Assembly: GCA_026416875.1 (NCBI GenBank) | Contig: JAOAEI010000012.1 | Location: forward strand, 1-32,311 | Length of the DNA stretch: 32,311 nucleotides | From: Caloramator sp. | GTDB lineage: Bacteria; Bacillota; Clostridia; Clostridiales; Caloramatoraceae | Direction of reading: 5' to 3' | In this document: in pieces, positions 14,673 through 32,241 of the stretch | How positions within the stretch are numbered: position 1 is the stretch's first letter | How the letters are laid out: every line of letters begins with the position of its first letter | The notes under the pieces: model-generated | Seen by the model: only the letters and a program-made list of their open reading frames with translations | Database searches by the model: none | Told to the model about the DNA's origin: nothing | Position numbers and translations under genes: made by a program

Positions 14673-15138
14673 TATCCCCACCCCTTTTAATTGAGGCTGC
14701 TTTTTTAATGGCACTTACAATCTTATTGTATCCTGTGCATCTGCATAGATTCCCAGAGATTGCCTCCCTTATTTCTTCCTCATTAGGATTTAAATTTTTA
14801 TCAAGAAGGCTCTTTGCTGCAAGCACCATCCCTGGCGTGCAAAATCCACACTGAACCGCTCCTTCTTCTATAAAGGAATTTTTAATAATTTCATCCTCTA
14901 TTCCTTCTATTGTGATTATCCTGCATTTATCTGCCTGGAAAGCAAGGACAAGGCAGGAATTTACTATTTCCCCGTCCATTATAACTGTGCAAGCACCGCA
15001 CTCTCCTTCTCCGCAGCCTTCCTTTGTCCCTGTAAGATGAAGTTTATCCCTTAAAAGATCTATAAGTCTTAAATTTTCTTCAACTTCAAGGCAGTAGTCT
15101 TTTCCATTTATATTAACATCAATTTTTTTCAAATTCAT
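14665..15138 (-). CDS. Xanthine dehydrogenase 2Fe-2S subunit
   Basis: This 157-aa protein carries two [2Fe-2S] clusters: the plant-ferredoxin-type motif GCGEGECGACTV (residues 42-53) with a later Cys (NSCLV, about 62), and the C-terminal helical-domain motifs QCGFCTPGM (about 97) and GNLCRCTGY (about 130). It carries electrons between the molybdenum and FAD subunits. It overlaps the FAD gene by 20 nt and the large-subunit start by 8 nt, so all three subunits are coupled. It is intact although the large subunit is not. Confidence 0.93.
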   Translation of the reverse strand: MNLKKIDVNINGKDYCLEVEENLRLIDLLRDKLHLTGTKEGCGEGECGACTVIMDGEIVNSCLVLAFQADKCRIITIEGIEDEIIKNSFIEEGAVQCGFCTPGMVLAAKSLLDKNLNPNEEEIREAISGNLCRCTGYNKIVSAIKKAASIKRGGDSE

Positions 15139-15997
15139 TCACCCCTTTACAAAGATAAAGGGCATTTAAAAGGGCCTTTTTAAATACACCCTTTGCTGCA
15201 ATGCTCTTAAACTTTGCCGTCTGTCTTCCCTTTAATCTTTCGAATATGATCCTTTCTAAGAGAGATTCAGCTTCCTTTAACGTATCTTCATTAATGATTC
15301 TTCCTGTAAGATATTCTTCAAGTTCGTATTCCCTCATGGGAAATCTTCCTATTGCACCGCTGGCAATTCTAATTATTTCAATTCTATTCATTTCGTCGAT
15401 TTCTAAAAACACAGCAAAACTCAATCTTGAGATTGCAAGGGCTCTTCTAAGTCCTAATTTATAAAAACCAAGCCCCTGATTTTTTAAAAGGTTCTTAAAC
15501 TTAATCCTTGTTAAAATTTCATCCTCTCCTAGGTCAACTCTTCCCTTGTCTTTGAAAAAGTCTTTAAGATAAACTTCTCTTTTTCTACCTTTTCTTTCTA
15601 AAACCAAAATGCTGTCGAGGGCAAGTAGCGGCGGAACAGTATCTGCAGCTGGTGAGGCATTGCATATATTTCCTCCTACTGTTCCTCTATTTCTTATTTG
15701 TGGAGAACCTACGCTTTTTGCAGCATCCTTAAGTCCCTTTAGGTTTTTATTTAAGAGAATGCATTCACTAATCTTAGTAAAGGTTGTTGCAGAACCTATG
15801 TCGATATATTCTAAAGTTTCTCTAATTCCTTTAAGTTCTTGAATAGTGCTTATATCTAAAATTACCTTTGGATTTTCCTCACCTTTTCTTATTTTGATAA
15901 TAAGGTCCGTCCCACCGGCAATTATTTTTGCATCATTTTTATATTTGTATTTATATTCTAGCACCTCTTCTAAGCTTTTAGGTTTTATAGCTTCCAT
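15119..15997 (-). CDS. Xanthine dehydrogenase FAD-binding subunit
   Basis: This 292-aa protein is of the CoxM/XdhB family. FAD-binding segments are IIAGGTDLIIKIRKGE near residue 25, GSATTFTKI near 68 and IRNRGTVGGNICNASPAAD near 100. It passes electrons from the iron-sulfur subunit to NAD+ or another acceptor. It starts at an ATG with GGGGGATAAC upstream, 12 nt after the deaminase gene (16010-17332), and runs into the 2Fe-2S gene. Intact. The trio is the usual three-subunit clostridial layout, here in the order FAD, FeS, Mo. Confidence 0.92.
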   Translation of the reverse strand: MEAIKPKSLEEVLEYKYKYKNDAKIIAGGTDLIIKIRKGEENPKVILDISTIQELKGIRETLEYIDIGSATTFTKISECILLNKNLKGLKDAAKSVGSPQIRNRGTVGGNICNASPAADTVPPLLALDSILVLERKGRKREVYLKDFFKDKGRVDLGEDEILTRIKFKNLLKNQGLGFYKLGLRRALAISRLSFAVFLEIDEMNRIEIIRIASGAIGRFPMREYELEEYLTGRIINEDTLKEAESLLERIIFERLKGRQTAKFKSIAAKGVFKKALLNALYLCKGVNEFEKN

Positions 15998-16009: not shown

Positions 16010-17332
16010 CTAAATTAGGCTTATCTGTTTTTTGATTATTCTATTTACATCCTTCTTGAGGGAATTTTCATCTATTGTTAAAAGTTTTCTATCCTTCATT
16101 AAAATTTTCCCATCCACAATTGTTGTTTCAACGTCTTCAGCCTTTGCAGAATAAACTATTTGTGATACTATATCAACTTCCTCCGTCGGCATGTTGTGAA
16201 GCTTATTAAGGTTTAAAATAATGATGTCTGCAAGCTTGCCTTCCTCAATGCTTCCTAATTTATCCTCCATACACATAGCCTTTGCACCATTTATTGTTGC
16301 CATTTCTAAAACCTTCATCGCAGGCATAACTGTTGGACTTAAAAGCCTTGCCTTTTGTATTAGTGCTGCTGTTCTCATCTCTATGAATATATCAAGGTTA
16401 TTATTGCAGGGAGCACCATCCGCACCTATCGATACATTAGCTCCCATATTTAATAGTTCAGGAATCTTTGCTATCCCTGAAGCAAGCTTTAAGTTGGAGC
16501 TTGGGCAGTGGGCTATTTTTGTTCCTGTGTCTGCAAGTATTTTCATTTCCTCATCATCCAGCCATATACAGTGGGCAAGAACAACCTTTTCACCAGTAAG
16601 CCCTAATTTATGAAGGTAAAGAATATTCCTCATTCCTCTATCCATTTCAACAAACTCAATTTCTCCTCTATTTTCAGAAGCATGTGTATGCACTAAGCAA
16701 TCGTATTCCCTTGCAAGATCCCTAACTCTTAATAAAAGGTCTTCTGTGCAGGAAACCGCAAACCTTGGATTAAAGGCATACTGTATCCTCCCAGCCTTTC
16801 CGTGCCATTTTTTAAGAAGTCTTACGCTTTCCTTTATAGAATCTTCAGCATTTTCCATTAATGTCTTTGGAACTTCTGTTCCGTAGTCCATCATACATTT
16901 GCCTGCAACTGCTCTAAATCCTGTTTCATATATTGCCTCAAAAGCACTGTCGGTATGGTGAACTGTTTCCATATCTATAATGGAAGTTGTTCCGCACTTT
17001 ATAAGTTCTGCAATACCGAGCTTTGCTGAAATATAATTAGACTCTTCTGTATGTCCTCCTTCAAGGGGCCATATCTTTTTCTTTAGCCAGTCTAAAAGTT
17101 CAAGATCATCGGCCTGGCCTCTAAACAGGGTTTGGGTAAGGTGAATGTGGGTTTGGATAAATCCAGGCAAAACCACCTTATCTTCAGCATCTATAACTTC
17201 ATCAGCTTCAACATTTATATTTTCTTTTATTTCTTTAATTTTATTGTCTTCGATTAAAATATCAGCCTTTAATATTTCTCTATCTTTATTCATTGTAACT
17301 ACTGTTCCATTTTTGATTAATATTCTTTGCAT
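16010..17332 (-). CDS. SsnA/TrzA-like amidohydrolase: guanine or 4-aminoimidazole deaminase candidate
   Basis: This 440-aa protein is of the metal-dependent aminohydrolase branch (TrzA, AtzB, SsnA, 8-oxoguanine and guanine deaminases). Metal ligands are H62 and H64 (GFIQTHIHLTQT), H217 (VHTHASE), H254 (LAHCIW) and D305 (GADGAPCNNN). The ATG at 17332 is chosen because GGGGGG lies 6 nt upstream; an upstream extension would read through an intercistronic hairpin. Its place between the purine permease and xanthine dehydrogenase suggests deamination of a purine or a product of one. Guanine -> xanthine would feed the pathway; 4-aminoimidazole -> 4-imidazolone would be the otherwise unassigned deamination. 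The sequence alone does not choose between them. Confidence 0.8.
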   Translation of the reverse strand: MQRILIKNGTVVTMNKDREILKADILIEDNKIKEIKENINVEADEVIDAEDKVVLPGFIQTHIHLTQTLFRGQADDLELLDWLKKKIWPLEGGHTEESNYISAKLGIAELIKCGTTSIIDMETVHHTDSAFEAIYETGFRAVAGKCMMDYGTEVPKTLMENAEDSIKESVRLLKKWHGKAGRIQYAFNPRFAVSCTEDLLLRVRDLAREYDCLVHTHASENRGEIEFVEMDRGMRNILYLHKLGLTGEKVVLAHCIWLDDEEMKILADTGTKIAHCPSSNLKLASGIAKIPELLNMGANVSIGADGAPCNNNLDIFIEMRTAALIQKARLLSPTVMPAMKVLEMATINGAKAMCMEDKLGSIEEGKLADIIILNLNKLHNMPTEEVDIVSQIVYSAKAEDVETTIVDGKILMKDRKLLTIDENSLKKDVNRIIKKQISLI

Positions 17333-17353
17333 CTTAATCCCCCCATTAGACTT

Positions 17354-17377
17354 AGGATGAGGCCGAGGCCTCATCCT
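17354..17377 (-). other. Intercistronic hairpin after the purine permease gene
   Basis: An 11-bp perfect GC-rich stem with a 2-nt loop (AGGATGAGGCC / GGCCTCATCCT) lies 2 nt after the permease stop codon. No T-run follows. It probably stabilises or processes the mRNA or gives partial termination. Confidence 0.6.
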
Positions 17378-17379
17378 GA

Positions 17380-18717
17380 TTATAGAATGCTCTTTAATAT
17401 GAATAGGATAGCCAATATATACATTGTAACTGAAATATCCTTTGTCTTTCCAGATATGAGCTTTAATACAACATATGATACTATACCAAATACTAAGCCT
17501 TCTGCGATGCTGTATGTGAATGGCATCATTATAATTGTTAAGAAGGCTGGAATTGCTTCAGTATAGTCTTCAAAGTTTATCTTAAATATTGGTGATATCA
17601 TGAATAGACCTATGATTATTAAAGCTGGTGCTGTAGCTGCAGCTGGAACTATTGTAAGTATTGGCGCAAATAATAGTGAAAGAAGCATTAAAACAGCAAC
17701 AGTAAGGGCAGTAAGACCAGTTCTTCCACCTTCTGCAACACCTGCTGCGCTTTCAACGTAGGTTGTAACTGTGCTTGTTCCAACTATTGCACCAAAGGTT
17801 GTTCCTATAGCGTCTGCTAAAAGGGCTTGTTTTGCCCTCGGAAGTTTTCCATCCTTGTCGAGCATATCTGCCTTTGATGCAACTCCAACTAATGTTCCAA
17901 CCGTATCAAACATGTCAACAAATAGGAATGTAAACATTACAACTAGGAATTCTCCAGTAAAGACTTTACTAAAATCGAACTTAAAGAGTATTGGTGATAA
18001 TGAAGGCGGTGCACTTATTATTGATGAAGGCATTGGAGTAACCTTTAAAGGAATTCCTAAAACTGTCGTAATCAAAATACCAATTAAAAGCGCTCCCTTA
18101 ACTCCCTTTGCAAGAAGATATCCAGTTATTATAAGACCTATAATAGCTAAGATAACTTCTGGACTCTTTAAATTTCCTAATGTAACTCCTGTTGCTTCAG
18201 AGTTAACTACAAGTCCTGCACTTCTTACACCAATGAAGGCTATAAAAAGTCCTATACCAACGCTAACTGCATGCTTTATTGAAAGAGGTATAGCATTAAC
18301 TATTGCTTCACGAACAGGAGTTACTGAAAGTATTATGAATATAATACCTTCTATAAGTATTGCTGCAAGTGCAACTTCCCATGAATATTTCATTCCAAGA
18401 ACTACTGTAAATGCGAAGAAGGCATTAAGTCCCATTCCTGGTGCAAGAGCAAAAGGATAGTTTGCATGGAAGGCCATAACTAAAGTAGCTACTGCAGCTG
18501 AAAGAGCTGTTGCTGTAAATAGAGCCCCTTTATCCATTCCTGTATTGCTGAGTATCTGTGGATTAACTATTAATATGTAAGCCATTGTCATAAATGTTGT
18601 AAAGCCTGCTATAATTTCTGTCCTAACATCGGTCTTATGTTCCTTTAGTTTAAATATCCTTTCTGCCCAAGCTGAAAATGCCGAATTGTTTTTTACTGTT
18701 TCAGGCTTGGTTGACAC
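17380..18717 (-). CDS. AzgA/NCS2-type purine permease
   Basis: This 445-aa membrane protein has about twelve to fourteen hydrophobic segments. It carries AzgA-branch signatures: ITGFTTF-like AGFTTFMTMAYILIVNPQIL near the N-terminus, FALAPGMGLNAFFAF in the third segment, GTSTVTTYVESAAGVAEGG in the middle, and FLFVDMFDTVGTLVGVA. Members import adenine, guanine or hypoxanthine, usually with protons. It starts at GTG 18717 with GGGGGG 6 nt upstream and lies 11 nt after adenine deaminase copy 2. It would supply the substrates for the deaminases on either side. Confidence 0.92.
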   Translation of the reverse strand: MSTKPETVKNNSAFSAWAERIFKLKEHKTDVRTEIIAGFTTFMTMAYILIVNPQILSNTGMDKGALFTATALSAAVATLVMAFHANYPFALAPGMGLNAFFAFTVVLGMKYSWEVALAAILIEGIIFIILSVTPVREAIVNAIPLSIKHAVSVGIGLFIAFIGVRSAGLVVNSEATGVTLGNLKSPEVILAIIGLIITGYLLAKGVKGALLIGILITTVLGIPLKVTPMPSSIISAPPSLSPILFKFDFSKVFTGEFLVVMFTFLFVDMFDTVGTLVGVASKADMLDKDGKLPRAKQALLADAIGTTFGAIVGTSTVTTYVESAAGVAEGGRTGLTALTVAVLMLLSLLFAPILTIVPAAATAPALIIIGLFMISPIFKINFEDYTEAIPAFLTIIMMPFTYSIAEGLVFGIVSYVVLKLISGKTKDISVTMYILAILFILKSIL

Positions 18718-18728
18718 AAAAAACCCCC

Positions 18729-20537
18729 CTATTCAATTAATGGATTTAAAATTTTAAAGTTATTTACGTCGATAAGTCCTTTGTCGGTAATCTTCCATTT
18801 TGGACTTGTGGTTAAAGCCAAGAATGAAAGATGCATAAATGGTGCGTGAACTTTACATCCTAAGACGTTTCTTGTAATGTCCTCTAATTTTTTAATCTTT
18901 GCTGCTACTTCATGTCCATCAAGTTCGTCTGTGATTAGCCCGCCAACTGGAAGTCTAAGTTCTTCTAGAATCTTTCCTCTACTTGATATTGCAATACCAC
19001 CCCCCATTTCAATTACTCTATTTACTGCAATTACTATATCTTTAATATTGCAGCCAACGGCGATAATATTGTGGGCATCATGGGAGACGCTCTCTGCAAA
19101 TGCCCCCTCTTTAAGTCCAAAGCCCTTTACAAAGGCCTTACCTATTCCATTAGTTCTTCCGTATCTTTCAACGCAGACTATTTCTAATACATCCTTTGAT
19201 GTATCCGGTAAAACCACGCCTCCACTTACCCTTAATTCTTCTTCAAAGGCATCTGTTAAATTCTGATCTGGAATAAGGCCAATACATCTTACCTTTTCGT
19301 AGGATTTACTACTTCTTATTGCAATGTCTTCCTCTGTCACTTTTGAACATTTAACTGACCTTTTTACCTCATCTGGATAAGTGTATTTTGGAAGATCGAT
19401 AATAAGTCTTCCCTTTACAGCAACAAGCTTTCCTTCTATGAATACCGCCTCAACCCTCATGCTTTCTAAATCATCAATAACTGCAATATCAGCAAGGTAT
19501 CCTGGCAATAGTGCACCCCTATCTTTAAAGCCAAAATATTCTGCAGGATTAATAGTTGCCATCTGAATAGCCTTAACCGGTTCAACGCCTTCTTTAATAG
19601 TTCTTTTTATTATTTCATTCATATGGCCTAAAGTCTCTAAATCTGCCGCAACCATATCATCAGTTGCAAGGATTAATCTTCTTGTATCTAAGTTTTCCTC
19701 TGTATATGCCCTTATGCATTCTGCCATGTTCTTTTGCGTTGAGCCTTCCCTCATAAAAACATATACGCCTTGTCTTAGCTTCTCAATGCACTCTTCCTTT
19801 GTTGTCGTTTCATGACAGGAGCATCTTGTTCCTGTTGCTATTATATGGGCAGCAAGTTCAGAGCCGAAAAGCTCTGGAGCATTTCCATCTACGACTTTAC
19901 CTATTGATTTTGCATAGGTAGTTGATGCCAAAAGGTCATCAATAATCTCTGGTGTATTTTTATATACATGTTTTGCATTGCTAAAACCTTGAAGCTCACC
20001 TATTCCAATTATGTTTTTATAGTTTAAAAGCTCCTCCATGTCCTTCGATGTTATATCGTATCCAGCAGTTTCAAGTTTTGGGCAGTCCGGTGTTAAAGAT
20101 GGAATAACAAGATGGACATGATTTGGAACGTTAGATATTTCGTCTGCCATAGCCTTAATGCCTATAGGACCTAATGCATTTCCAATTTCATGGGGATCTG
20201 CTACTAATGTGGTTGTTCCTGATGGGATTGAAAGCCTTGAAAATTCAGTTACTGTTAACATACTGCTCTCAAAGTGCATATGGGAATCTATAAAGCCAGG
20301 GGAAATGTATTTGCCCTTAACATCGATAACTAAAGTGTTATCTCCTATTAATTTATCTGCATCTCCAACCATTAAAATATATTTTCCCTTTATTGCAACA
20401 TCGGCTTCGTAAATTTCCCCTGAAACCACATTAACGACTTTTCCTCTATGTAAAACTATATCTGCATACCCATTTCCCATTAGGATATCGATAAGCTGTC
20501 TGTATTCTATTGCCCTTTTAACATTTTCAAGTTTCAA
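18729..20537 (-). CDS. ade: Adenine deaminase family protein (copy 2)
   Basis: This 602-aa amidohydrolase is homologous to the copy at 10737-12443. Motifs are GFIDSHMHFESSMLTV, ADPHEIGNALG, ATDDMVAADLE and, in the C-terminal part, SHDAHNIIAVG. It begins at TTG 20537 with AAGGAGGTGG upstream and follows the BMC vertex gene by 12 nt, so it is the first enzyme gene after the shell block. Adenine -> hypoxanthine is the default function. The second-site motif ATDDMVA differs from CTDDRHP in copy 1, which hints at different substrates. One of the two could be the 4-aminoimidazole deaminase. Confidence 0.85.
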   Translation of the reverse strand: MKLENVKRAIEYRQLIDILMGNGYADIVLHRGKVVNVVSGEIYEADVAIKGKYILMVGDADKLIGDNTLVIDVKGKYISPGFIDSHMHFESSMLTVTEFSRLSIPSGTTTLVADPHEIGNALGPIGIKAMADEISNVPNHVHLVIPSLTPDCPKLETAGYDITSKDMEELLNYKNIIGIGELQGFSNAKHVYKNTPEIIDDLLASTTYAKSIGKVVDGNAPELFGSELAAHIIATGTRCSCHETTTKEECIEKLRQGVYVFMREGSTQKNMAECIRAYTEENLDTRRLILATDDMVAADLETLGHMNEIIKRTIKEGVEPVKAIQMATINPAEYFGFKDRGALLPGYLADIAVIDDLESMRVEAVFIEGKLVAVKGRLIIDLPKYTYPDEVKRSVKCSKVTEEDIAIRSSKSYEKVRCIGLIPDQNLTDAFEEELRVSGGVVLPDTSKDVLEIVCVERYGRTNGIGKAFVKGFGLKEGAFAESVSHDAHNIIAVGCNIKDIVIAVNRVIEMGGGIAISSRGKILEELRLPVGGLITDELDGHEVAAKIKKLEDITRNVLGCKVHAPFMHLSFLALTTSPKWKITDKGLIDVNNFKILNPLIE

Positions 20538-20549
20538 TATGCCACCTCC

Positions 20550-20819
20550 TTATCCTATGTCAACCCTATCCACTATTCCTACGATGGCAATATCGATTGG
20601 AGCCTCCATCTTTCTTGCTGCAAGCCTTGCGGCAGTTCCTGATGTTGTATATATAACAATCTCCCCTATCCCGGCACCTACTGTATCTACTGCAATAAAT
20701 GGGTTTCCAAAGGGTTTATATTTATAATCAACCGGCTGCGTTATAAGAAGCTTGCAACCGGTTAATCTTTCGTCTTTTCTTGTTGCTACAACTGTTCCGA
20801 TGACCTTTCCTAAGTTCAT
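20550..20819 (-). CDS. eutN: BMC vertex protein, EutN/CcmL family (BMC-P)
   Basis: This 89-aa protein forms the pentamers that cap the corners of bacterial microcompartment shells. It shows the family pattern: MNLGKVIGTVVATRKDERL at the start, AVDTVGAGIGEIVIYTTSG in the middle and PIDIAIVGIVDRVD at the end. The start ATG at 20819 has AAGGAGGTT 5 nt upstream; the longer frame to 20864 has none. It lies between a small BMC-associated gene and adenine deaminase. It is the only BMC-P gene in the window. Confidence 0.93.
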   Translation of the reverse strand: MNLGKVIGTVVATRKDERLTGCKLLITQPVDYKYKPFGNPFIAVDTVGAGIGEIVIYTTSGTAARLAARKMEAPIDIAIVGIVDRVDIG

Positions 20820-20875
20820 ATATTTAACCTCCTTATATTGCTGCAGAAAAGATTTATAAAACACATAACAAAAGT

Positions 20876-21190
20876 TTAATTTTCTTTGATTATAATGATT
20901 CCCTTTTTCCTCGCAGCATCCTTTGCAAGGGGAGTTAGAATTGCGTCATGTGGCAGAAGGAGCTTTTCAACATTCATGTTTAAAATATCATTTTCGGTTA
21001 AAACAATTCTTTTACCATCATGATCCTTTAACTTTTGTTCTGATACAGTTTCCGTTTTTTTATCTTTATCTTGATTTAAGAAACTTTCTAAAGTAACGGA
21101 AACTATCCTTTTACTCCCCTCTTTTTTTCCCTTTAATCTATTCGTCAAATCCTTTAGGATGGCATCTGCAAAATCCTTTTTATCCATCAT
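20876..21190 (-). CDS. Small BMC-associated protein with EutT/PduL-like C-terminal motif
   Basis: This 104-aa protein has a predicted amphipathic helix at residues 2-20 (MDKKDFADAILKDLTNRLKG), a polar linker, and a C-terminal segment (about 63-104) reading RIVLTENDIL … HDAILTPLAKDAARKKGI. The second pattern (V-T-P-x-A-x-x-x-A-x-x-K-G-I) recurs in BMC-encoded proteins of several loci. The first helix resembles the encapsulation peptides that carry cargo into shells. These likenesses are from memory; function is unknown. It lies between a BMC-H gene and the BMC-P gene, so a scaffold or cargo adaptor is a reasonable guess. Start is ATG 21190 with AAGGG upstream. Confidence 0.65.
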   Translation of the reverse strand: MMDKKDFADAILKDLTNRLKGKKEGSKRIVSVTLESFLNQDKDKKTETVSEQKLKDHDGKRIVLTENDILNMNVEKLLLPHDAILTPLAKDAARKKGIIIIKEN

Positions 21191-21225
21191 ATTCACCCTT
21201 AAAATTTTTCAAAGTTGAAAAAATT

Positions 21226-21237
21226 GAGAACTGTCCC
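21226..21237. repeat. Short GAGAACTGTCCC motif after a BMC-H stop codon
   Basis: The minus-strand reading GGGACAGTTCTC starts inside the stop codon of the BMC-H gene and is followed by AATTTTTTC. The string recurs in intergenic DNA of many bacteria as a REP-like motif (from memory). It sits in the same post-stop position as GTGCCTGGCAC at 5598. Confidence 0.25.
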
Positions 21238-21515
21238 TAGTTTTCGCTCTTTAAAATAACCCTTTCAACTTCTGCATGTGGTCTTGGAATTACGTGAACA
21301 GCATGAAGTTCTCCAACTTGTCTTGCAGCTTCAGCACCAGCATCAACGGCAGCCTTAACTGCACCAACGTCTCCTCTTACCATTACAGTTACAAGACCAA
21401 ATCCTATCTTTTCATATCCTACTAAAGTAACATTAGCAGCCTTTACCATAGCATCTGCAGCTTCGATTGCTGCTGTTAATCCTTTTGTTTCAACTAAACC
21501 TAAAGCTTGACCCAT
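21237..21515 (-). CDS. BMC-H shell protein A
   Basis: This 92-aa, single BMC domain (PduA/CcmK type) protein forms hexagonal shell tiles. It shows the classic order: [20 protein letters not shown], then [25 protein letters not shown] and the signature [12 protein letters not shown] near the C-terminus. The pore loop, around KIGFG, differs from the other two copies. RBS AGGAGG is 8 nt before the ATG. It follows the 102-aa BMC-H gene by 12 nt. Length is standard. Confidence 0.97.
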
Positions 21516-21527
21516 AAAAATTACCTC

Positions 21528-21836
21528 CTATTCAATATTTTTTATGTTTTTCTTTAGCTCATTTAAAATTTTATCAAGTTCCTCGTGAGGTCTTGGAATA
21601 ACCTTATAATATGCAACCTTCCCTACTCTATTTGCTGCTTCTACGGCAGCGTCCACAGCAGCCTGAACTGCTGCTACTTCTCCTTCAAAATGGATTGAAA
21701 CTCCAACGGCTTTATTAACTCCAATGACTCTATCCATACCTATGAGATTAACATCGGCAGCCTTTGCTGCTGCATCCATTGCAGCAACAGCTGCACTAAA
21801 GCCTACCGTTTCAACAATACCAAGCGCCCTTCTCAA
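21528..21836 (-). CDS. BMC-H shell protein B, with extended C-terminus
   Basis: This 102-aa, single BMC domain protein has ALGIVETVGFSAAVAAMDAA, NLIGMDRVIGVNKAVGVSIHF, then EAANRVGKVAYYKVIPRPHE. The stretch around the pore (VIGVNKAVG) is longer than in its neighbours, and a charged tail DKILNELKKNIKNIE follows. It starts at TTG 21836 with GAGGGGGTG upstream. It may give a different pore size or selectivity from proteins A and C. Confidence 0.95.
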   Translation of the reverse strand: MRRALGIVETVGFSAAVAAMDAAAKAADVNLIGMDRVIGVNKAVGVSIHFEGEVAAVQAAVDAAVEAANRVGKVAYYKVIPRPHEELDKILNELKKNIKNIE

Positions 21837-21851
21837 TGCTACACCCCCTCA

Positions 21852-22073
21852 TCACTTTAGTAGCTTCTCAAGGTCATCGATTGTTATAAAGCTGCGCGAT
21901 GCTGCATTTCTTTCCGCTACTTTGTTTGTGCTAAATCCATTTTTATGTAAAATCTCCTTTAATATTCTTTCTTCCTTCTCTCCTAAATTTCCTGCCCTTT
22001 TTTCTGAAATTTCCAAATTTTTATCCGCCAATGTTTTTTCAATAAAGTTGTTAAAGGCAACCCTATTTAGCAT
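21852..22073 (-). CDS. Small protein within the BMC gene block, unknown
   Basis: This 73-aa, highly charged, probably helical protein is not recognised as a known family. It begins with an amphipathic stretch (RVAFNNFIEKTLADK) and ends with SFITIDDLEKLLK, which loosely resembles RIVLTENDIL…VEKLLL in the 104-aa protein at 20876-21190. It sits between two BMC-H genes with gaps of 11-15 nt and has GGGGTGG 4 nt before its ATG, so it is very likely translated. A shell-core linker is possible but unproven. Confidence 0.6.
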   Translation of the reverse strand: MLNRVAFNNFIEKTLADKNLEISEKRAGNLGEKEERILKEILHKNGFSTNKVAERNAASRSFITIDDLEKLLK

Positions 22074-22084
22074 TTAACCACCCC

Positions 22085-22348
22085 TTAAAACATCCTATCA
22101 ACTTCATCATGGGGTCTTGGAATTACATTGAAGGAAATAACCTCAGAAATCTCTTCTGCAACCCTTCTTCCATTTTCAACAGCTGCCTTAACAGCTGCAA
22201 CTTCTCCGCTTACCGTTACTGAAACCAATCCTGAACCTACTATTTGGTAATTCATTATCTTTACATTTGCAGTTTTAACCATGGTATCTGCAGCTTGGAT
22301 TGCAGCTACAAGGCCTCTTGTTTCAACAATACCTATAGCTTCCCTCAT
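22085..22348 (-). CDS. BMC-H shell protein C
   Basis: This 87-aa, single BMC domain protein has AIGIVETRGLVAAIQAADTM, VKIMNYQIVGSGLVSVTVSGEVAAV and FNVIPRPHDEVDRMF. The pore segment reads IVGSG. It is the first shell gene of the run, 12 nt after ubiD, with GAGGTGATAGG before the ATG. Close spacing to the decarboxylase places shell and catabolic enzymes on one transcript. Confidence 0.97.
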   Translation of the reverse strand: MREAIGIVETRGLVAAIQAADTMVKTANVKIMNYQIVGSGLVSVTVSGEVAAVKAAVENGRRVAEEISEVISFNVIPRPHDEVDRMF

Positions 22349-22360
22349 CCTATCACCTCA

Positions 22361-23665
22361 TTAAACGTTAGGAATTTTGCATCTTTCAAATCTTTCATTG
22401 TTTAGGGGTTTTGTTGCATCAAGTCCTAACTTATCAGTAACTCCCCTTAATGTATGGGATGGATCTAATGTTGTTCCTAAGGCACCTGAAATCACAACAA
22501 GATCCTTTGAAGCCTGAAATCTTGTTGCAATTGCAAGCTCAACATCCTCCATGTCAAATATATCTATATCATCATCAACTATAACAACGTGCTTTAAATC
22601 CTTTATGCTGCTCAAGGCTCCAATTATAGCAGTCTTTCCATCGCCCTCTTGTTTTTTCTTTATGGAGGCTACTGCATGAAATCTATAACCTCCAGCTAAG
22701 GTAACATGAACGTCCTTAACATCCACAAGCCTTTTTAATGAATAATAAAGCTCAACTTCCCTCAAAAGGCCGTTTGCAAGATGTTCTTCCCTACAGGGAA
22801 AGGCTGTCTGATAAATTGGGTTATTTCTATGCATTATGGCCTTAATCTCTATGATTGGATGCATTCCTTGCTGTCCATAATAACCCATAAGTTCCCCAAA
22901 GGGGCCTTCCGTTTCCCTTCTATTTGGAACCATTACTCCTTCAAGAACTATTTCAGCATGGGCTGGAACTTCTAAATCGACAGTTTTACATTTTACAACT
23001 TCTAATGCTTCTCCCCTTATTGCACTATCGATTTCATATTTATCAACCCCATAAAGTTCGCTGCTAACCTGAGAAGCAAGCAAGAAGGGAACATCATATC
23101 CTAAAACTATAGCAACTTCAAGAGGTTTATTTTGTTTTTCCATTTCTAAAAACTGATTTGTAAGATAAGGGGATGCTATAAGGGCACTTATTTTATTCCT
23201 ATCTATCACTTGAAATCTTCTAATTGAGGTATATCTTTTTCCTGTTTTTATGTCCTTTACAACTAACATTCCAGCCGTTATGTATGTAGAGGAATCCTTT
23301 TCATGGAAATATGGATTAGGAAGTGATCTTACATCCAAATTTCCTGTAATTATGTTTTCCATAACAGGCCCGTAGTTTAAAAGCTTTACAGGCTTTGGAT
23401 TTGCAATTGCCTCCATAAGTTTAAATATTCTTTCTTCGTGTTTTATACCTAAAAGTTTGAATAAAACATCCCTGTCGGTGTAAAGGGCACCGCATACAGG
23501 CATCTTATAACCCTTTACCTTATTAAATATAATTGGCCTTCTGTTTTTATATTTTTTTAGGATGCTTCCAAGCTCAAACTTGGGGTCCACCTCATTATTA
23601 ACTTCCATTAAAAGCCCCATTTGTTTTATTTTATTAAGCTCATATCTTAACATCTGCCTATCCAT
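22361..23665 (-). CDS. ubiD: UbiD-family decarboxylase, candidate 4-amino-5-imidazolecarboxylate decarboxylase
   Basis: This 434-aa protein is of the prenylated-FMN-dependent UbiD family, which removes or adds carboxyl groups on aromatic, heteroaromatic and alpha,beta-unsaturated acids. Family segments are RPIIFNKVKGYKMPVCGALY, the prFMN-region VVKDIKTGKRYTSIRRFQV, EGPFGELMGYYG with its Glu residues, and VIVDDDIDIFD near the C-terminus. The start ATG (23665) overlaps the end of ubiX by 8 nt, and UbiX makes the cofactor. Gene context fits 4-amino-5-imidazolecarboxylate -> 4-aminoimidazole + CO2. A ubiquinone role is unlikely in an anaerobic clostridium. Substrate is inferred. Confidence 0.88.
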   Translation of the reverse strand: MDRQMLRYELNKIKQMGLLMEVNNEVDPKFELGSILKKYKNRRPIIFNKVKGYKMPVCGALYTDRDVLFKLLGIKHEERIFKLMEAIANPKPVKLLNYGPVMENIITGNLDVRSLPNPYFHEKDSSTYITAGMLVVKDIKTGKRYTSIRRFQVIDRNKISALIASPYLTNQFLEMEKQNKPLEVAIVLGYDVPFLLASQVSSELYGVDKYEIDSAIRGEALEVVKCKTVDLEVPAHAEIVLEGVMVPNRRETEGPFGELMGYYGQQGMHPIIEIKAIMHRNNPIYQTAFPCREEHLANGLLREVELYYSLKRLVDVKDVHVTLAGGYRFHAVASIKKKQEGDGKTAIIGALSSIKDLKHVVIVDDDIDIFDMEDVELAIATRFQASKDLVVISGALGTTLDPSHTLRGVTDKLGLDATKPLNNERFERCKIPNV

Positions 23666-24221
23666 TTTGTTCACCCCATCTTGTAAAGAGGCTATGCTCT
23701 ATATCAAATTGATCAAGTATCCTTCCAACCATAAAGGCAACAAGGTCGCTAATGGATCTTGGATTATTATAAAAGGCTGGAGAGGCAGGCATTATTTTAA
23801 CTCCTATTTTTGATAGCTTTAGCATATTCTCAAGATGAATAGGACTCAAGGGGGTTTCCCTTGGAACAAGGATTAATTTTCTTCCTTCTTTTATACAAAC
23901 ATCAGCAGCCCTTGTTAAAAGACTTTCTGAATATCCATTTGCAACCGCTGATAATGTCTTCATGGAACACGGAACAATAATCATTCCATCGGTTTTAAAG
24001 GAACCGCTGGCAATTGCTGCACTTAAATCCTTGTTATCATATGAGTAGCTTGCAAGCCTTCTAACATCTTCCAGATTATATCCACACTCATGTTCTAAAA
24101 CATATTCCCCCATCGTGGATACAACAAGATAGGTTTCGATGTTTAGCTCCTTTAAAACCTTCAAAAGACCTATTCCATATATTACACAGCTTCCGCCTGA
24201 AATACCAACTATAAGCCTCAT
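23658..24221 (-). CDS. ubiX: UbiX-family flavin prenyltransferase
   Basis: This 187-aa protein joins a dimethylallyl group to FMN to make the prenyl-FMN used by UbiD. Typical motifs are VGISGGSCVIYGIGLL at the N-terminus, VPCSMKTLSAVANGYSESLL in the middle, LVPRETPLSPIHLENML and the C-terminal VARILDQ-like GRILDQFDIEHSLFTRWGE. ATG 24221 is preferred over the upstream GTGs because AGAGTGG lies 5 nt upstream. It is coupled to ubiD by an 8-nt overlap. It follows the isochorismatase-like gene after a 53-nt gap containing a hairpin. Confidence 0.93.
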   Translation of the reverse strand: MRLIVGISGGSCVIYGIGLLKVLKELNIETYLVVSTMGEYVLEHECGYNLEDVRRLASYSYDNKDLSAAIASGSFKTDGMIIVPCSMKTLSAVANGYSESLLTRAADVCIKEGRKLILVPRETPLSPIHLENMLKLSKIGVKIMPASPAFYNNPRSISDLVAFMVGRILDQFDIEHSLFTRWGEQNG

Positions 24222-24253
24222 AAGCACCACTCTTTACTTAAATATTGGACAAA

Positions 24254-24274: not shown

Positions 24275-24886
24275 TTATTCAACTTTATTTTCCCTATCTC
24301 CAGCTCCTGTCCATGGATCTATTCCCTTTTCCCATGCATCTATATACTCATCGATTGTCATTATCTTAGAGAAAAGGCTAAGATCCCTAAGTCCTGATTC
24401 ATGCATTTCTTGAGTCTTTGATTGAGTTCCATCTGATAAAACTATAACCTTATATGCACGGTGAATAGCATCTGATGCTGTGCTTCTTACACACACATTT
24501 GTCCAAACTCCTGTTAATACAACAGTATCTATATTTTCTTCCCTTAAGTATAGGTCAAGGTCTGTATACGCAAAGCCTGAGTGTCTTCTCTTTTGAACTA
24601 TATATTCATCTCCCTCTGGCTTTAATTCGTCGATAAAATCTGAACCCCAAGTTCCCTTAACAGCATGAACTGGTCTTACTCTAAAGTCTGCATCGTTCTT
24701 TCTGTGGGCTTCTTGGATATGAACAAGTTGAACTTCGTCCTTTCCATTTGCTCTTCTTTCTCTAACCCACTTAAAGAGCTTTTGAAGATTAGGAACTATA
24801 AGGTCTGCTCCTGGGCATCTTAAAGTTGCCTTTTCACCAACGAAATCGTTTAACATATCTATAACTAAAATTGCATGTCTTGGCAT
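24275..24886 (-). CDS. Isochorismatase-fold amidohydrolase, candidate 4-ureido-5-imidazolecarboxylate hydrolase
   Basis: This 203-aa cysteine hydrolase has a readable D10-K99-C132 triad (VIDMLNDF, IVQKRRHSGF, TGVWTNVCVRST). Relatives split ureido or carbamoyl groups: N-carbamoylsarcosine amidohydrolase, ureidoacrylate hydrolase RutB and biuret hydrolase. The long N-terminal insert and the C-terminal tail (to 203) are normal for that group. It lies between the cyclic-amide hydrolase and UbiX/UbiD, exactly where removal of the ureido group (releasing CO2 and NH3 and giving the amino-imidazolecarboxylate) would be needed. Nicotinamidase is an alternative but fits the context less well. Confidence 0.82.
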   Translation of the reverse strand: MPRHAILVIDMLNDFVGEKATLRCPGADLIVPNLQKLFKWVRERRANGKDEVQLVHIQEAHRKNDADFRVRPVHAVKGTWGSDFIDELKPEGDEYIVQKRRHSGFAYTDLDLYLREENIDTVVLTGVWTNVCVRSTASDAIHRAYKVIVLSDGTQSKTQEMHESGLRDLSLFSKIMTIDEYIDAWEKGIDPWTGAGDRENKVE

Positions 24887-24898
24887 ATTAATCCTCCT

Positions 24899-26314
24899 TT
24901 AGAATTTGATAACTCTGTCAAGCTTTTGAATGCTTTGTCTCTTTATCCACTTACCGTATCCTGGTTCTCCAACTATTCCCTTTTCTTCATCATATACAAG
25001 TTTTCCGCGAACAACAGTCTTTACAACTTTACCCTTTAATTTCATTCCGTCAAATGGAGTGTATTTATTGAGGCACTGCATCTTTTCCTTTTCAATTACC
25101 CATTCTTTGTTAAGGTCTATTATTGTAAAGTCAGCATCTGAACCTATCATTAAAGCACCCTTCTTTGGATAGAGTCCATAGTGCTTTGCTGCATTTGTTG
25201 ATAATATTTCAACTAATCTTGAAAGGGATATTCTTCCCTTGTTGTATCCTTCGCTAACTATGATTGGAACCATAGTCTCTGTTCCTGGAATTCCTGGGAA
25301 GGCAGTCCAAATTGTCATGCCTGGAGCGTCCTTTTCAGTTGGAATTTCATATGGTGCGTGGTCTGTAGCTATAAAGTCAACGCTGCCATCTTGAAGTCCC
25401 TGCCATAATTCTTCGTTGTCCTTCTTTGTTCTTATTGGAGGTGCAATCTTTACAAACTGTTTAAACTTAGTCATATGTTCTTGATAATTTAATGTAAGGT
25501 AATGAGGACAAGTTTCTGATGTAACATCAACCCCCTTCATTTTTGCTTCCTTAACAAGCTTTGCTCCTATTCCTGTTGACATGTGAACTACGTGGAATCT
25601 TGCTCCTGTTTCCTCTGCATAGCTTATGCAAAGCTGAATTGCAACCTTTTCAGCAAGTTCCATTCTTGCCTCTGCCCACGCTGGTGGATCCATTCTGCCC
25701 TCTTCTTTAAACTTTTGAACCATATAATCACAAATTGCAAAGTTTTCAGCATGAACTCCAACTGGAAGGCCTGTCTTTGCAACTTCTCTAAATATTTCAA
25801 GCATTTCAGGGTCAGTAACCCTTGGATATGATGGAACCGATGGAGTCATATAAACTTTGAAGGCTACAACACCTTCAGCAGCCTGTTCTTCTATTATTTT
25901 TAAGTTCTTATTTCTAACATCCTCTCCAGTAACTCCACCCCACATAGCATAGTCAACTATAGCTTTGTCCTTTATAGCGTTTATCTTGTTGTGAAGTTCT
26001 GCAACTCCTCTTACTGATGGAACAGAACAGCATGGCATATCGATTATAGTTGTAACACCACCAACTGCTGCACCGCTTGTTCCTGTTAAGAAGTTTTCTC
26101 TGTGGGTAAATCCAGGGTCCATGTAGTGGGTATGGGAGTCGATACATCCTGGTAAAGTTAAATGGCCTTCTGCATCGATTATGCTATCTGCCTCGATGCC
26201 TTCTAAGTTGTCAATAAAGCCTGCAATCTTTTCATCCTTAACAAGGATGTTAGTTAAAACTGTGTCGTCCCCCTTTGGAATCCTTGCATTTTTAACGATT
26301 AAATCATACCTCAT
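24899..26314 (-). CDS. Cyclic-amide hydrolase (dihydropyrimidinase/allantoinase family), candidate xanthine amidohydrolase
   Basis: This is a 471-aa amidohydrolase with the two-metal site of hydantoinases: H61 and H63 (GCIDSHTHYMDPG), K153 for carbamylation (AFKVYMTPS), H188 (VHAEN), H244 (HVVHMST) and D318 (ATDHAPY), plus the family marker ETCPHYLTL. Dihydropyrimidinase opens a six-membered cyclic ureide to a ureido acid, and opening xanthine between N1 and C6 to 4-ureido-5-imidazolecarboxylate is the same type of reaction. It is second in the run, directly before the ureido-hydrolase candidate. Allantoinase or hydantoinase activity is the main alternative. RBS GGGGGAT lies before the ATG. 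Confidence 0.85.
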   Translation of the reverse strand: MRYDLIVKNARIPKGDDTVLTNILVKDEKIAGFIDNLEGIEADSIIDAEGHLTLPGCIDSHTHYMDPGFTHRENFLTGTSGAAVGGVTTIIDMPCCSVPSVRGVAELHNKINAIKDKAIVDYAMWGGVTGEDVRNKNLKIIEEQAAEGVVAFKVYMTPSVPSYPRVTDPEMLEIFREVAKTGLPVGVHAENFAICDYMVQKFKEEGRMDPPAWAEARMELAEKVAIQLCISYAEETGARFHVVHMSTGIGAKLVKEAKMKGVDVTSETCPHYLTLNYQEHMTKFKQFVKIAPPIRTKKDNEELWQGLQDGSVDFIATDHAPYEIPTEKDAPGMTIWTAFPGIPGTETMVPIIVSEGYNKGRISLSRLVEILSTNAAKHYGLYPKKGALMIGSDADFTIIDLNKEWVIEKEKMQCLNKYTPFDGMKLKGKVVKTVVRGKLVYDEEKGIVGEPGYGKWIKRQSIQKLDRVIKF

Positions 26315-26327
26315 AATTTATCCCCCT

Positions 26328-27233
26328 TTAATCCATTAAATGATATTCGATTATTTGTTCCTTTCTAAAGTTTTCAAGGCCTAAGAAATATTCAAGGGAA
26401 TTTAAAAGATAATCAAGCTTTACTGGACCTACTATTTCTGAGCCTGTAACCTGCACACCATATCTTGCAGCCTCAGACTTTATAAAGTTATATGCCCTAT
26501 AAAGTGGAGTTAAACCGCAATCAAACATATTCATTGAAACAACAACACCGCTTCTTTCTGGGAACTTAATTCCAACCGCCCTCACAGTTGAGAAACCTCC
26601 ACTTGGTCCCCTTACTGCCTTTGCTATTTTCTTTGCAATGTCTAAATCTTCAGTTGCAAGGAATACGTTATATGCAGTTAATCCTTCATAGTCAGCACTT
26701 ACTATTGTCGCACCAGCCGTAGGATGTAGTGCTGCAGGTCCAATGTCTGGACGTCTTTCCTCTGTATGTGCAACCTTCTTTAATCCTTCGTATTGTCCTT
26801 CCCTTATATTTGATATGGATTTTCTAAATTCATTTCTTGCATTTTTCCCTGAGAAATAAACAGGAACCTTATATCTTTCATAAATTTCCTTTCCTATTTC
26901 TTCTGCAAGCTCAATAACTTCTTCAATTTTAATATTTCTAAATGGGAAAAGAGGAATTGTATCCTGGGCGCCTATCCTTGGGTGTGAACCCTGCTGTTCT
27001 TCCATATTAATAAGCTCATAAGCCTTTCCTGCCATATTAAGTAATGCTTCCTTTAAAGGCTCTGGTTCCCCTATTACTGTCACAACAGTTCTGTTAAAGT
27101 CATATTCAGGTTCGTAGCTTATAAGCTTTACACCCTCAACATTTCTTACCTTATCAACTATGGCTTCAATAACTTCCTTTCTTCTTCCTTCGCTAAAGTT
27201 TGGAACGGCTAGAACATATTTCTTTTCAGCCAA
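26328..27233 (-). CDS. Formiminotransferase paralogue, candidate formiminoglycine formiminotransferase
   Basis: This 301-aa monofunctional formiminotransferase starts at TTG 27233 with AGGGGGG 6 nt upstream. It shares VPNFSEGR, QQGSHPRIGAQD and ALHPTAGATIVSADYEGLTAYN with FtcD at 2581-3483 but is clearly diverged, for instance in DRYK-like YERYKVPVYFSGKNARNEFR. It lacks a cyclodeaminase domain. It opens the purine run, next to genes for xanthine breakdown, so formiminoglycine rather than formiminoglutamate is the likely donor to tetrahydrofolate; glycine would be the product. FchA and Fhs in the hut cluster could finish the chain. Confidence 0.85.
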   Translation of the reverse strand: MAEKKYVLAVPNFSEGRRKEVIEAIVDKVRNVEGVKLISYEPEYDFNRTVVTVIGEPEPLKEALLNMAGKAYELINMEEQQGSHPRIGAQDTIPLFPFRNIKIEEVIELAEEIGKEIYERYKVPVYFSGKNARNEFRKSISNIREGQYEGLKKVAHTEERRPDIGPAALHPTAGATIVSADYEGLTAYNVFLATEDLDIAKKIAKAVRGPSGGFSTVRAVGIKFPERSGVVVSMNMFDCGLTPLYRAYNFIKSEAARYGVQVTGSEIVGPVKLDYLLNSLEYFLGLENFRKEQIIEYHLMD

Positions 27234-27294
27234 TTTTATCCCCCCTTCAAAATACATGTTTATAAAAAGATTTCAATAAATATTTCTAAAAACC

Positions 27295-27324: not shown

Positions 27325-27414
27325 TTTTTACAAAATTCCCCTTGTATTTTTGTGTAATATTTATAATTGAAAGGAGTATAATTAAAATTAAATTCATTTT
27401 GGGGGGTGTTTTTA

Positions 27415-28107
27415 TTGCCGTTTAAAGTAATAGATTTATCTCAAGAAATATATCAAGGCATGTCAGTTTTCCCAATGCATCAAAAGACATTTATAATGGT
27501 TAACATGACACATGAAGAAAATATGAAACAGACAGGCAGCAAAACATTAGGCTTTTCGGCAAGAAATTTGCTTATAAGCGAACACGGCGGAACCCACTGC
27601 GACGCTGTTTGGGAATATAAACCTACAGGTGCAACAATTGAAAAGATGCCTTTAGAATATTTCTTTGGGAGTGCCGTTTGTATAGACGTATCCTTCGTTC
27701 CTGCATCAAGATACATAGAAGTTAAGGACCTTCAAATGGCAATAAAAAATTCAGGGCAGGAAATTAAAAGGGGAGATATAGTTCTTTTATATACAGGACA
27801 CTATGACAGAAACTTTGGAACTGAAAAATGGCAAACAGAATATACAGGCCTTAGCTATGATGCTGCAAAATTCCTTGCTGAACTTGGAGTTGTAAACATA
27901 GGAGTTGATGCTCCATCTATCGACCACCCTGATGATTTAGATTTTTCAGGCCACCTTGTATGTGGAGAATATAACATAACCAATACAGAAAACCTGTGTA
28001 ATCTTGATAAACTTGTTAACAAAAGATTTTTATACTTTGGTCTTCCCCTTAAAATAAGGGACGGTTCAGGATCACCAATAAGGGCAATAGCATTAATAGA
28101 GGAATAG
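27415..28107 (+). CDS. Cyclase-family metal hydrolase (kynurenine formamidase / isatin hydrolase-like)
   Basis: This 230-aa protein is of the Cyclase (PF04199-type) superfamily. The metal-binding motif HGGTHCDA is near residue 55, with FSARNLLISE before it, GDIVLLYTGHYDRN near 120 and GVDAPSIDHPDD near 160. Relatives hydrolyse N-formylkynurenine or open the lactam ring of isatin, using Mn2+ or Zn2+. It starts at TTG 27415 with GGGGGG 8 nt upstream. It is transcribed away from the purine run from a shared region, so it may act on a purine-derived intermediate. Opening 4-imidazolone to formiminoglycine is an attractive, unproven guess. It ends at a clear terminator. Confidence 0.82.
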   Translation: MPFKVIDLSQEIYQGMSVFPMHQKTFIMVNMTHEENMKQTGSKTLGFSARNLLISEHGGTHCDAVWEYKPTGATIEKMPLEYFFGSAVCIDVSFVPASRYIEVKDLQMAIKNSGQEIKRGDIVLLYTGHYDRNFGTEKWQTEYTGLSYDAAKFLAELGVVNIGVDAPSIDHPDDLDFSGHLVCGEYNITNTENLCNLDKLVNKRFLYFGLPLKIRDGSGSPIRAIALIEE

Positions 28108-28131
28108 GAAACCCAATTGGGTTTCTTTTTT
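28108..28131 (+). terminator. Intrinsic terminator of the cyclase-family gene
   Basis: A 9-bp self-complementary arm pair (GAAACCCAATTGGGTTTC) is followed by six T. It lies directly after the stop codon. Confidence 0.9.
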
Positions 28132-28163
28132 GTTGCTTTTTGTAGCAATAAGTAAATGCACCT

Positions 28164-28172
28164 CATAATGTA
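28164..28172 (+). promoter_or_regulatory. SigK-like -10 element before the spore-surface gene block
   Basis: CATAATGTA matches the late mother-cell sigma-K -10 pattern CATAnnnTA, about 40 nt upstream of the 28211 start. The -35 (expected AC) is only partly matched (GCA at 28145). Support comes mainly from the kind of genes downstream. Confidence 0.4.
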
Positions 28173-28210
28173 ATAGTAGGTTAGTAATTTTTTCAATTGG
28201 AGGGAAGATT

Positions 28211-28741: not shown

Positions 28742-28775
28742 TAGCACTAAGAAATAATGATAAGGAGGAATATGT

Positions 28776-29129: not shown

Positions 29130-29166
29130 CAAAAATAGCTAAATTTTATAAAATGGAGGGAATAAT

Positions 29167-29481: not shown

Positions 29482-29497
29482 CTGCCCTGAGGGCAGC
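29481..29497 (+). other. Intercistronic hairpin after paralogue 2
   Basis: A GCTGCCC / GGGCAGC stem of 7 bp with a 3-nt loop starts on the last base of the stop codon and has no T-run. It is the same post-stop arrangement as the hairpins at 3511, 17354 and 24254. Confidence 0.5.
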
Positions 29498-29527
29498 ATA
29501 CATAATCAATTAAAAGGAGTTATGAAT

Positions 29528-29872: not shown

Positions 29873-29877
29873 ATCTT

Positions 29878-31524
29878 TTAATTTTTAATTACATCCCTTA
29901 TTTTAAGCGCTAAATGGAGGCAAAGCCTATCGTTTTCCCTTTCTACATCAAGGCCTGTAATCTCTTTTATCCTCTGGAGTCTATAAAGTATAGTATTATA
30001 ATGGGTATATAAAACTTCTGACATCCTTTTTAAATTTCCGTTGCATTCAAAATAAGTCTTTAAAGTTTTTACAAATTCAGTAGATTTTCTGCTATCGTAT
30101 TCATCTAAAACTTCTATTGTTGACCTATAAAAATCCGTTATTTCATCTTTTATATCTTCATTACAAAGAAGCTTATAAATCCCAAGATTATCATATGATA
30201 TTATATTTTTATCATTTAAAATATCCACTGCCCTAATAGATTTTTGTGCCTCCTTAAAGCTCTTTTCAATGTTCTTTACTCCCTTTAAACACCTTCCTAC
30301 ACCTATTTTATATTCCAAGAATATTCTTTTGCTGAAAAGGTCTAATATTTCATCCTTAAAGGTATTTATCCTTCTTTTTACATCTTCATCCCTTTTAAAG
30401 CAAAGCAATATGTCGATTTGATCCTTTCGGGTAGCTACCAATCCATTTAACTTTAATTTAGATAGAATTTCTTCTAATATATTTGAAAGATAAATATTAT
30501 CACTATATAAATTTAAATCCGCTTTTTTATAGCTTCTTTTTATTTTCACTATTATGTAGCAGTAGATATCCTCAGGGCCAAAATTATAAATGCTAAAGCT
30601 TCCTTCTGCCTTTTCCTTTCTTTTTTCGTCATTTGAACAGAGGTCTTCAATAAATTCAATTTTGTGAGTATTTTCGGCCTCCCTTAAGGATAATAGTTTA
30701 AGTATCTCTACAGCCATTGTCGTTGCAGCGATCTCCAAAACTGAAAGATCAAATCCGCCAAGAGGAGTATTTATTGCCCAGGAAAAAATATGGCCGTAAA
30801 CTGTATTTTTAACTACAATAGGCATAACCATCCTTATAACATTTTTTCCTTGAATTCTTTCTACCGATTCATAGAATTTTTTTTCTAATGTTCCTTTGCT
30901 TTTGCTGTAAAATTCTTCAAAATTTTTCTTTATCTTATCCTTTATATCATCTTCTACTCCATCAAGTTTTAAAATATTTTTTTCAGGGTAATTAAGCCTA
31001 AGAATAACAGGGTTTTTTATGTTTTCATATACTACGTTGATAATCTCCTCGATGCTTCCACCCTTTAGCATTATATTCATCATACTCTCGTGGACGTTTT
31101 CTAGCCTTTGCAGGAGTATCGTCTGTTTGTTGAAAATCTCTTTAAATATGGGAGTTATTATCTCTGAAAAGGGAGTTGCATAGTAAAGATCAATTATAGG
31201 AAAGGAAATGCTGTTTGCAAGCTCTAAGACAGATTCATCTAATCTTTCTATATAGGGATAAATTTTAATTCCAAGACCTGAAAGTTTTTTTTGGCTACAG
31301 GATAATATAAACTTTTTTTGAAATTCTACATCACTTGTTAGAGCATATGCTGTTGTTAATAAAAGCTCTCCTTCGCTAACCCAGTTTAAAATATCAGGAT
31401 CTGCCATAATATTTACCCTTGAAACCGTGTTTTTTATTCCTCCATATCCAGCTATAATCCTACAATTTTTCATGCAATCCATCCTTAAAACTTCTTCAAT
31501 AGTTATTCCATTTTGCCTTGCCAT
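29878..31524 (-). CDS. pucR: PucR-family transcriptional regulator
   Basis: This 548-aa protein has an N-terminal PucR domain (TIEEVLRMDCMKNCRIIAGY and DPDILNWVSEGELLLTTAYAL, residues 1-120), a central GAF-like/linker region, and a C-terminal helix-turn-helix of the PucR/CdaR type (FECNGNLKRMSEVLYTHYNTILYRLQRI). In Bacillus such a protein controls purine catabolism genes. Located next to the purine run, it is the obvious candidate regulator, but its binding site cannot be read here. ATG 31524 is taken because GGGGGG lies 6 nt upstream; the ATG at 31530 has no room for one. Confidence 0.85.
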   Translation of the reverse strand: MARQNGITIEEVLRMDCMKNCRIIAGYGGIKNTVSRVNIMADPDILNWVSEGELLLTTAYALTSDVEFQKKFILSCSQKKLSGLGIKIYPYIERLDESVLELANSISFPIIDLYYATPFSEIITPIFKEIFNKQTILLQRLENVHESMMNIMLKGGSIEEIINVVYENIKNPVILRLNYPEKNILKLDGVEDDIKDKIKKNFEEFYSKSKGTLEKKFYESVERIQGKNVIRMVMPIVVKNTVYGHIFSWAINTPLGGFDLSVLEIAATTMAVEILKLLSLREAENTHKIEFIEDLCSNDEKRKEKAEGSFSIYNFGPEDIYCYIIVKIKRSYKKADLNLYSDNIYLSNILEEILSKLKLNGLVATRKDQIDILLCFKRDEDVKRRINTFKDEILDLFSKRIFLEYKIGVGRCLKGVKNIEKSFKEAQKSIRAVDILNDKNIISYDNLGIYKLLCNEDIKDEITDFYRSTIEVLDEYDSRKSTEFVKTLKTYFECNGNLKRMSEVLYTHYNTILYRLQRIKEITGLDVERENDRLCLHLALKIRDVIKN

Positions 31525-31560
31525 ACCCATCCCCCCGAAAATTCTACATCATTTATTATA

Positions 31561-32202: not shown

Positions 32203-32241
32203 TTTATCACAATCCTTATTTTAAATTTTAGTTGTATTATA

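Follow-up and report, generated by a model that had tools for sequence, protein, structure and literature searches.

Gene content of the Caloramator locus

The window, that is the whole stretch of 32,311 nucleotides that we analysed, is a Caloramator purine locus on a single contig, and the matching locus of C. australicus, of which a stretch was fetched, is 88-100% identical to it gene by gene. On the minus strand, the operon starts with a formiminotransferase, a hydantoinase/allantoinase-like hydrolase and an isochorismatase, followed by UbiX, UbiD, BMC-H, a 73-aa ORF, two further BMC-H genes, a 106-aa protein, BMC-P, Ade1, a purine-type permease, a 5'-deoxyadenosine-deaminase-like amidohydrolase and the subunits of a xanthine dehydrogenase. 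Upstream of the operon lie a divergent gene for a cyclase-family hydrolase and a gene for a PucR regulator. Further along the window, we found a second adenine deaminase, a formate-tetrahydrofolate ligase and a set of histidine-degradation genes that includes a separate formiminotransferase (FTCD, 2581..3483), to which the formiminotransferase of the operon is 46% identical. The ORFs of the hydrolase and the isochorismatase are separated by 12 bp and lie where the initial annotation had put them. The features are listed below, with step numbers referring to the proposed route.

12607..15997, minus strand: xanthine-dehydrogenase-type molybdenum hydroxylase (FAD, FeS and split Mo subunit)
16010..17374, minus strand: 5'-deoxyadenosine-deaminase-like amidohydrolase, accessory purine/nucleoside deaminase (NF005557 over cut-off)
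17380..18717, minus strand: xanthine/uracil-type permease
18729..20537, minus strand: Ade1, adenine-deaminase-like, proposed 4-aminoimidazole deaminase (step 4)
20550..20864, minus strand: EutN/CcmL shell vertex protein (BMC-P)
20876..21196, minus strand: 106-aa protein, possible cargo or assembly protein (weak TIGR02536/PduM-like C-terminus, E 1e-7, below cut-off)
21237..21515, minus strand: BMC-H shell protein (about 78-99% identity to other loci)
21528..21836, minus strand: BMC-H shell protein
21852..22073, minus strand: 73-aa ORF within the shell operon, without family match
22085..22348, minus strand: BMC-H shell protein
22361..23674, minus strand: UbiD-family decarboxylase, proposed 4-amino-5-imidazolecarboxylate decarboxylase (step 3; TIGR00148 over cut-off)
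23658..24230, minus strand: UbiX-type flavin prenyltransferase, making prFMN for UbiD (TIGR00421 over cut-off)
24275..24886, minus strand: isochorismatase-fold hydrolase, proposed 4-ureido-5-imidazolecarboxylate hydrolase (step 2; 203 aa, 3hb7 orthologue)
24899..26314, minus strand: hydantoinase/allantoinase-like metallohydrolase, proposed xanthine amidohydrolase or xanthinase (step 1; 471 aa, Amidohydro_1)
26328..27257, minus strand: formiminotransferase paralogue, proposed glycine formiminotransferase (step 6)
27406..28107, plus strand: cyclase-family (PF04199) metallohydrolase, proposed 4-imidazolone hydrolase (step 5)
29878..31530, minus strand: PucR-family purine regulator

The molybdenum subunit of the xanthine dehydrogenase is encoded by two ORFs in different frames (12607-14714). 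A frameshift error was dropped as the cause of this split, given that a second Caloramator genome is split identically, with zero indel across 2399 aligned bases at 88% identity. Judging from this alignment, the split is probably natural. In the window, the second of these two ORFs stops early at an in-frame TAG (12607-12609), and the corresponding ORF of the second genome runs on for ~50 residues past that position.

Between the cyclase and PucR genes (28211-29872) there are four small ORFs, the first with a sub-threshold match to the BclA C-terminus (exosporium-like) and the remaining three without family match where scanned. Another contig of the assembly (G000:C7:1-4865, L113) holds a second copy of window positions ~27450-32240, from cyclase to PucR, whose proteins are about 95-99.5% identical where measured. 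This copy reflects either two strains or a duplicated contig end.

Active sites and relatives of the hydrolase and the isochorismatase

All six residues that the initial annotation had assigned to the metal site of the hydrolase (H61, H63, K153, H188, H244 and D318) were found, and they are identical in 85 of 85 relatives, a set made of 83 Xau-type orthologues and one HyuA-type protein counted twice, with a few of the loci overlapping. The protein matches Amidohydro_1 (Pfam, E 1.4e-31), its predicted structure (pLDDT 95) adopts the amidohydrolase TIM-barrel fold, and its four His, carboxylatable Lys and Asp make up the binuclear metal site of the hydantoinase/dihydropyrimidinase/allantoinase family. 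The closest solved relative is the L-hydantoinase 1gkr (E 4e-90, 36% identity), with which the model aligns over 448 residues (Z 55.9, rmsd 1.6).

The D10-K99-C132 triad claimed for the isochorismatase is likewise present, and identical in 84/84 relatives. The protein matches the Isochorismatase family (Pfam, E 9.7e-45) and has as closest solved relative 3hb7 (E 9e-105), a close orthologue that we take to be the isochorismatase of Alkaliphilus metalliredigens. By comparison, the models for RutB and biuret hydrolase match it far below their curated cut-offs. These two enzymes and N-carbamoylsarcosine amidohydrolase have the isochorismatase fold in common with the window protein, but act on different substrates.

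The hydrolase exceeds the cut-off of the NCBIfam allantoinase model TIGR03178 (375 vs 358), so that automatic annotation may well call it an allantoinase. It could then be an allantoinase or a hydantoinase, with the isochorismatase acting on allantoate or on a carbamoyl amino acid, and its 32-36% identity to solved allantoinases and hydantoinases, with 1gkr as top structure, goes in the same direction. We consider this very improbable, for several reasons. First, the hydantoinase-like proteins from Xau loci group together in the tree (support 0.94), and all five references (an L-hydantoinase, a D-hydantoinase, two allantoinases and one HyuA-type protein) fall outside this clade. Second, this clade has conserved residues around the active-site loops and metal site that are absent from the references, such as C96, S100, P158, A320, Y322, F339 and P340. 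While the L-hydantoinase of Arthrobacter aurescens (1gkr) and the allantoinase of E. coli (3e74, 8hfd) share the fold and the six metal-site residues with the hydrolase (Z 54-56, 33-36% identity), the latter sits in a separate clade with its own conserved active-site loops. Third, no M20-type carbamoylase was found over cut-off in the genome; for an allantoate-processing enzyme, there was no TIGR01879 match over cut-off in the genome (78% complete) and none was seen in the window. Finally, UbiD and Ade1 genes, for which an allantoin route has no use, almost always accompany the hydrolase. The allantoinase label was therefore dropped on the basis of context, clade and the missing allantoate enzyme, and a standard profile would mislabel what we propose to be a xanthinase.

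In Tissierella and Peptostreptococcaceae, the xanthinase-like proteins (L045:8367-9965, L010:8340-9887 and similar) are 512-546 aa long and have YQGFPHREN in place of DPGFTHREN after the HxH motif. Since their N- and C-termini align, the extra 40-60 residues are probably internal.

Proposed route from xanthine to glycine

The initial annotation read the pair as a xanthine opener followed by a ureido hydrolase, and the surroundings make this clearly the most plausible reading: PucR, the purine permease, the purine deaminases, xanthine dehydrogenase, UbiX/UbiD, Ade1, the cyclase and the formiminotransferase are all encoded here. The gene set from hydrolase to formiminotransferase covers the whole Rabinowitz route from xanthine to glycine. 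From this context we infer the substrates and bond specificities that follow. The hydrolase, with its carboxylated-lysine binuclear metal site, would hydrolyse the N1-C6 amide of xanthine to give 4-ureido-5-imidazolecarboxylate, a bond change that would equal that of dihydropyrimidinase on dihydrouracil; it is the context that points to this reaction. The isochorismatase (Asp-Lys-Cys) would then take off the carbamoyl group, releasing 4-amino-5-imidazolecarboxylate, CO2 and ammonia. Decarboxylation of 4-amino-5-imidazolecarboxylate by UbiD/UbiX and deamination of 4-aminoimidazole by Ade1 would follow, after which the cyclase-family enzyme may open the imidazolone ring to formiminoglycine and the formiminotransferase may pass the C1 unit to tetrahydrofolate, leaving glycine. 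Together, these data suggest, with a probability of roughly 0.9, that the pair, as part of a Xau-type microcompartment locus, catalyses steps 1 and 2 in the anaerobic fermentation of xanthine.

The precedent first offered for this pairing, namely that the two folds work in sequence in hydantoin and uracil degradation, is inaccurate. The carbamoylases of the hydantoin and dihydropyrimidine pathways are of nitrilase fold or M20 type, reductive uracil degradation uses a ureidopropionase of nitrilase fold, and RutB, which has the isochorismatase fold, acts after the flavin monooxygenase RutA. The conclusion holds nonetheless, because it rests on gene context.

The same context bears on whether the pair degrades dihydropyrimidines, as a dihydropyrimidinase followed by a ureidopropionase-like step. 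The fold class would suit such a role and the hydrolase does match TIGR02033, although below its cut-off. However, the neighbouring enzymes belong to purine, histidine and C1 metabolism, and no Rut, Pyd or dihydropyrimidine dehydrogenase genes turned up in the window, in line with the absence of pyrimidine signs noted earlier. Also, PreA gave no match over cut-off in the genome (78% complete), on which basis pyrimidine degradation by the pair was discarded; we regard it as extremely improbable.

Gene order and the choice of the xanthine opener

Fold and residues alone cannot tell xanthine from the imidazolone ring that arises later in the route; gene order makes this distinction. The core hydrolase-isochorismatase-UbiX-UbiD-BMC-Ade1 keeps its order in most of the 80 loci fetched from Clostridia and Bacilli, and the hydrolase is followed immediately by the isochorismatase in 80 of 81 loci, a set comprising loci chosen by their isochorismatase together with genomes searched further. 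This count is inflated, since the choice by isochorismatase over-represents its neighbours by design; the pairing of cyclase with Ade1 and the split described below are not explained by this selection. In 12 loci, a gene of the same orientation precedes the cyclase at a distance of no more than 400 bp; it is Ade1 in 12/12 and never the isochorismatase. These 12 loci come from Bacillaceae, Andreesenia, Acidaminobacter and Thermosyntropha, with two from genomes labelled Rhodospirillales and Brenneria. In Clostridia, the cyclase is divergent and adjoins the hydrolase or the formiminotransferase. Thermosyntropha has the pathway divided between two sites, one with hydrolase-isochorismatase-UbiD (L115) and one with Ade1-cyclase (L116, one genome). 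In the other genome (L117), the order is cyclase-formiminotransferase-cyclodeaminase, and the genes after these resemble, on visual inspection, those for thioredoxin and glycine reductase. A search of the window's own genome for glycine reductase (PF07355) gave no match, yet the control set gave none either. In a set of 17 genomes from the family, a genome has either all three of hydrolase, isochorismatase and cyclase (5 genomes) or none of them. The arrangement in Thermosyntropha follows the sequence of the reactions: the hydrolase stands where xanthine enters and the cyclase where formiminoglycine is formed.

This arrangement is pertinent to a published assignment. Ravcheev 2019 attributed opening of the xanthine ring to Amet_4587 and of the imidazolone ring to Amet_4584, with Amet 4586 as formiminotransferase and 4581 as decarboxylase (PMC6620236). 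Alkaliphilus loci are ordered cyclase, formiminotransferase, sometimes formate-THF ligase, hydantoinase-like protein, isochorismatase. Combining this order with the published roles of 4586 and 4581, we infer that Amet_4587 is the cyclase and Amet_4584 the hydantoinase-like protein. In that case, the 2019 prediction runs opposite to the initial annotation: the cyclase would open xanthine and the hydantoinase-fold protein (XauF) the imidazolone, while the isochorismatase would still decarbamoylate. Besides having been published (PMC6620236), such swapped roles are in keeping with the opening of five-membered rings by hydantoinases and with the divergent cyclase of Clostridia beside the hydrolase or formiminotransferase. 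Yet in the 12 loci and in the divided pathway of Thermosyntropha, the cyclase is grouped with Ade1 and the formiminotransferase, and the hydrolase goes with the isochorismatase and UbiD. Moreover, the cyclase model (pLDDT 86) finds isatin hydrolases as its best structural matches (Z 25, a tie with other cyclase-family chains, which score no more than 1 to 2 units apart), and isatin hydrolase opens a five-membered cyclic amide (lactam). We therefore judge the swapped roles to be improbable. The assignment of the pair to xanthine is well supported, though it has been reported before; what is added here is gene-order evidence, independent of biochemistry, on which enzyme opens xanthine and which the imidazolone, and it goes against the 2019 prediction.

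The microcompartment locus and related systems

The locus encodes three BMC-H proteins and one EutN/CcmL (BMC-P) protein, together with the amidohydrolase, isochorismatase, carboxy-lyase, formiminotransferase and deaminase of the Xau/BUF enzyme set; xanthine dehydrogenase and a purine permease are linked to it, and the aldehyde/alcohol dehydrogenase core is absent. It is an unusual microcompartment locus, of neither carboxysome nor aldehyde-metabolosome plan, and its enzymes may be located in the shell. Axen 2014 had described the locus type as BUF, with isochorismatase, amidohydrolases, deaminase, carboxy-lyase and formiminotransferase (PMC4207490), and Ravcheev 2019 predicted BUF to be a xanthine-utilisation compartment (Xau) from Amet_4568-4587 of Alkaliphilus metalliredigens (PMC6620236). 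The Xau locus of that species has the same formiminotransferase, ring hydrolases, carbamoyl hydrolase, decarboxylase, xanthine dehydrogenase, permease and BMC shell, whereas the roles that we propose for the ring openers are reversed, provided that Amet_4587 and Amet_4584 are indeed the cyclase and the hydrolase, respectively. BMC-T has been reported for BUF, and a search of the whole genome (78% complete) showed only three BMC proteins of the single-domain kind and no BMC-T.

Anaerobic purine breakdown is relevant to gut purine handling and gout. The abstract of the 2023 work by Tong and colleagues reportedly names four hydrolases that belong to different families, along with a prFMN-dependent decarboxylase, which fits the gene set of the window, and the first two hydrolases are said to enable E. 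coli Nissle to obtain nitrogen from xanthine. Li et al. 2025 credit Tong et al. 2023 with the gene cluster of the xanthinase pathway, place it in Clostridia and Bacilli, and describe xanthinase as slow, with a kcat of 0.1 per second (PMC12507026). By their account, this pathway likewise cleaves xanthine hydrolytically without oxygen and then reaches glycine through further hydrolytic and decarboxylative steps. A hydantoinase-fold enzyme also takes part in anaerobic purine breakdown in the reductive urate pathway (HyuA/SsnA/YgeY/YgeW; PMC12507026), but there it acts after ring reduction and is only 36-37% identical to the hydrolase of the window. A relative from another genus of the same family (G020, L118) has a reductive-urate-like cluster with xanthine dehydrogenase, HyuA-like, peptidase, carbamoyltransferase and SsnA-like genes, in which the HyuA-like gene is without adjacent isochorismatase, UbiD or shell genes.

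In two Thermosyntropha genomes, an orphan hydrolase-isochorismatase pair (L072:8543-10561, L073:8501-10561) exists beside the copy linked to UbiD, and none of the other pathway genes was recognised near it. Because of this lone second copy, the pair could act outside the microcompartment, as a self-contained unit yielding two ammonia and one CO2 from xanthine, a possibility that we hold to be rather doubtful.

Two small ORFs of the shell operon, 20876-21196 and 21852-22073, lack a firm family assignment. On visual inspection, the N-terminus of the 106-aa protein (20876-21196) resembles an amphipathic encapsulation helix. Their counterparts by position in L112 are 274 and 204 aa long.
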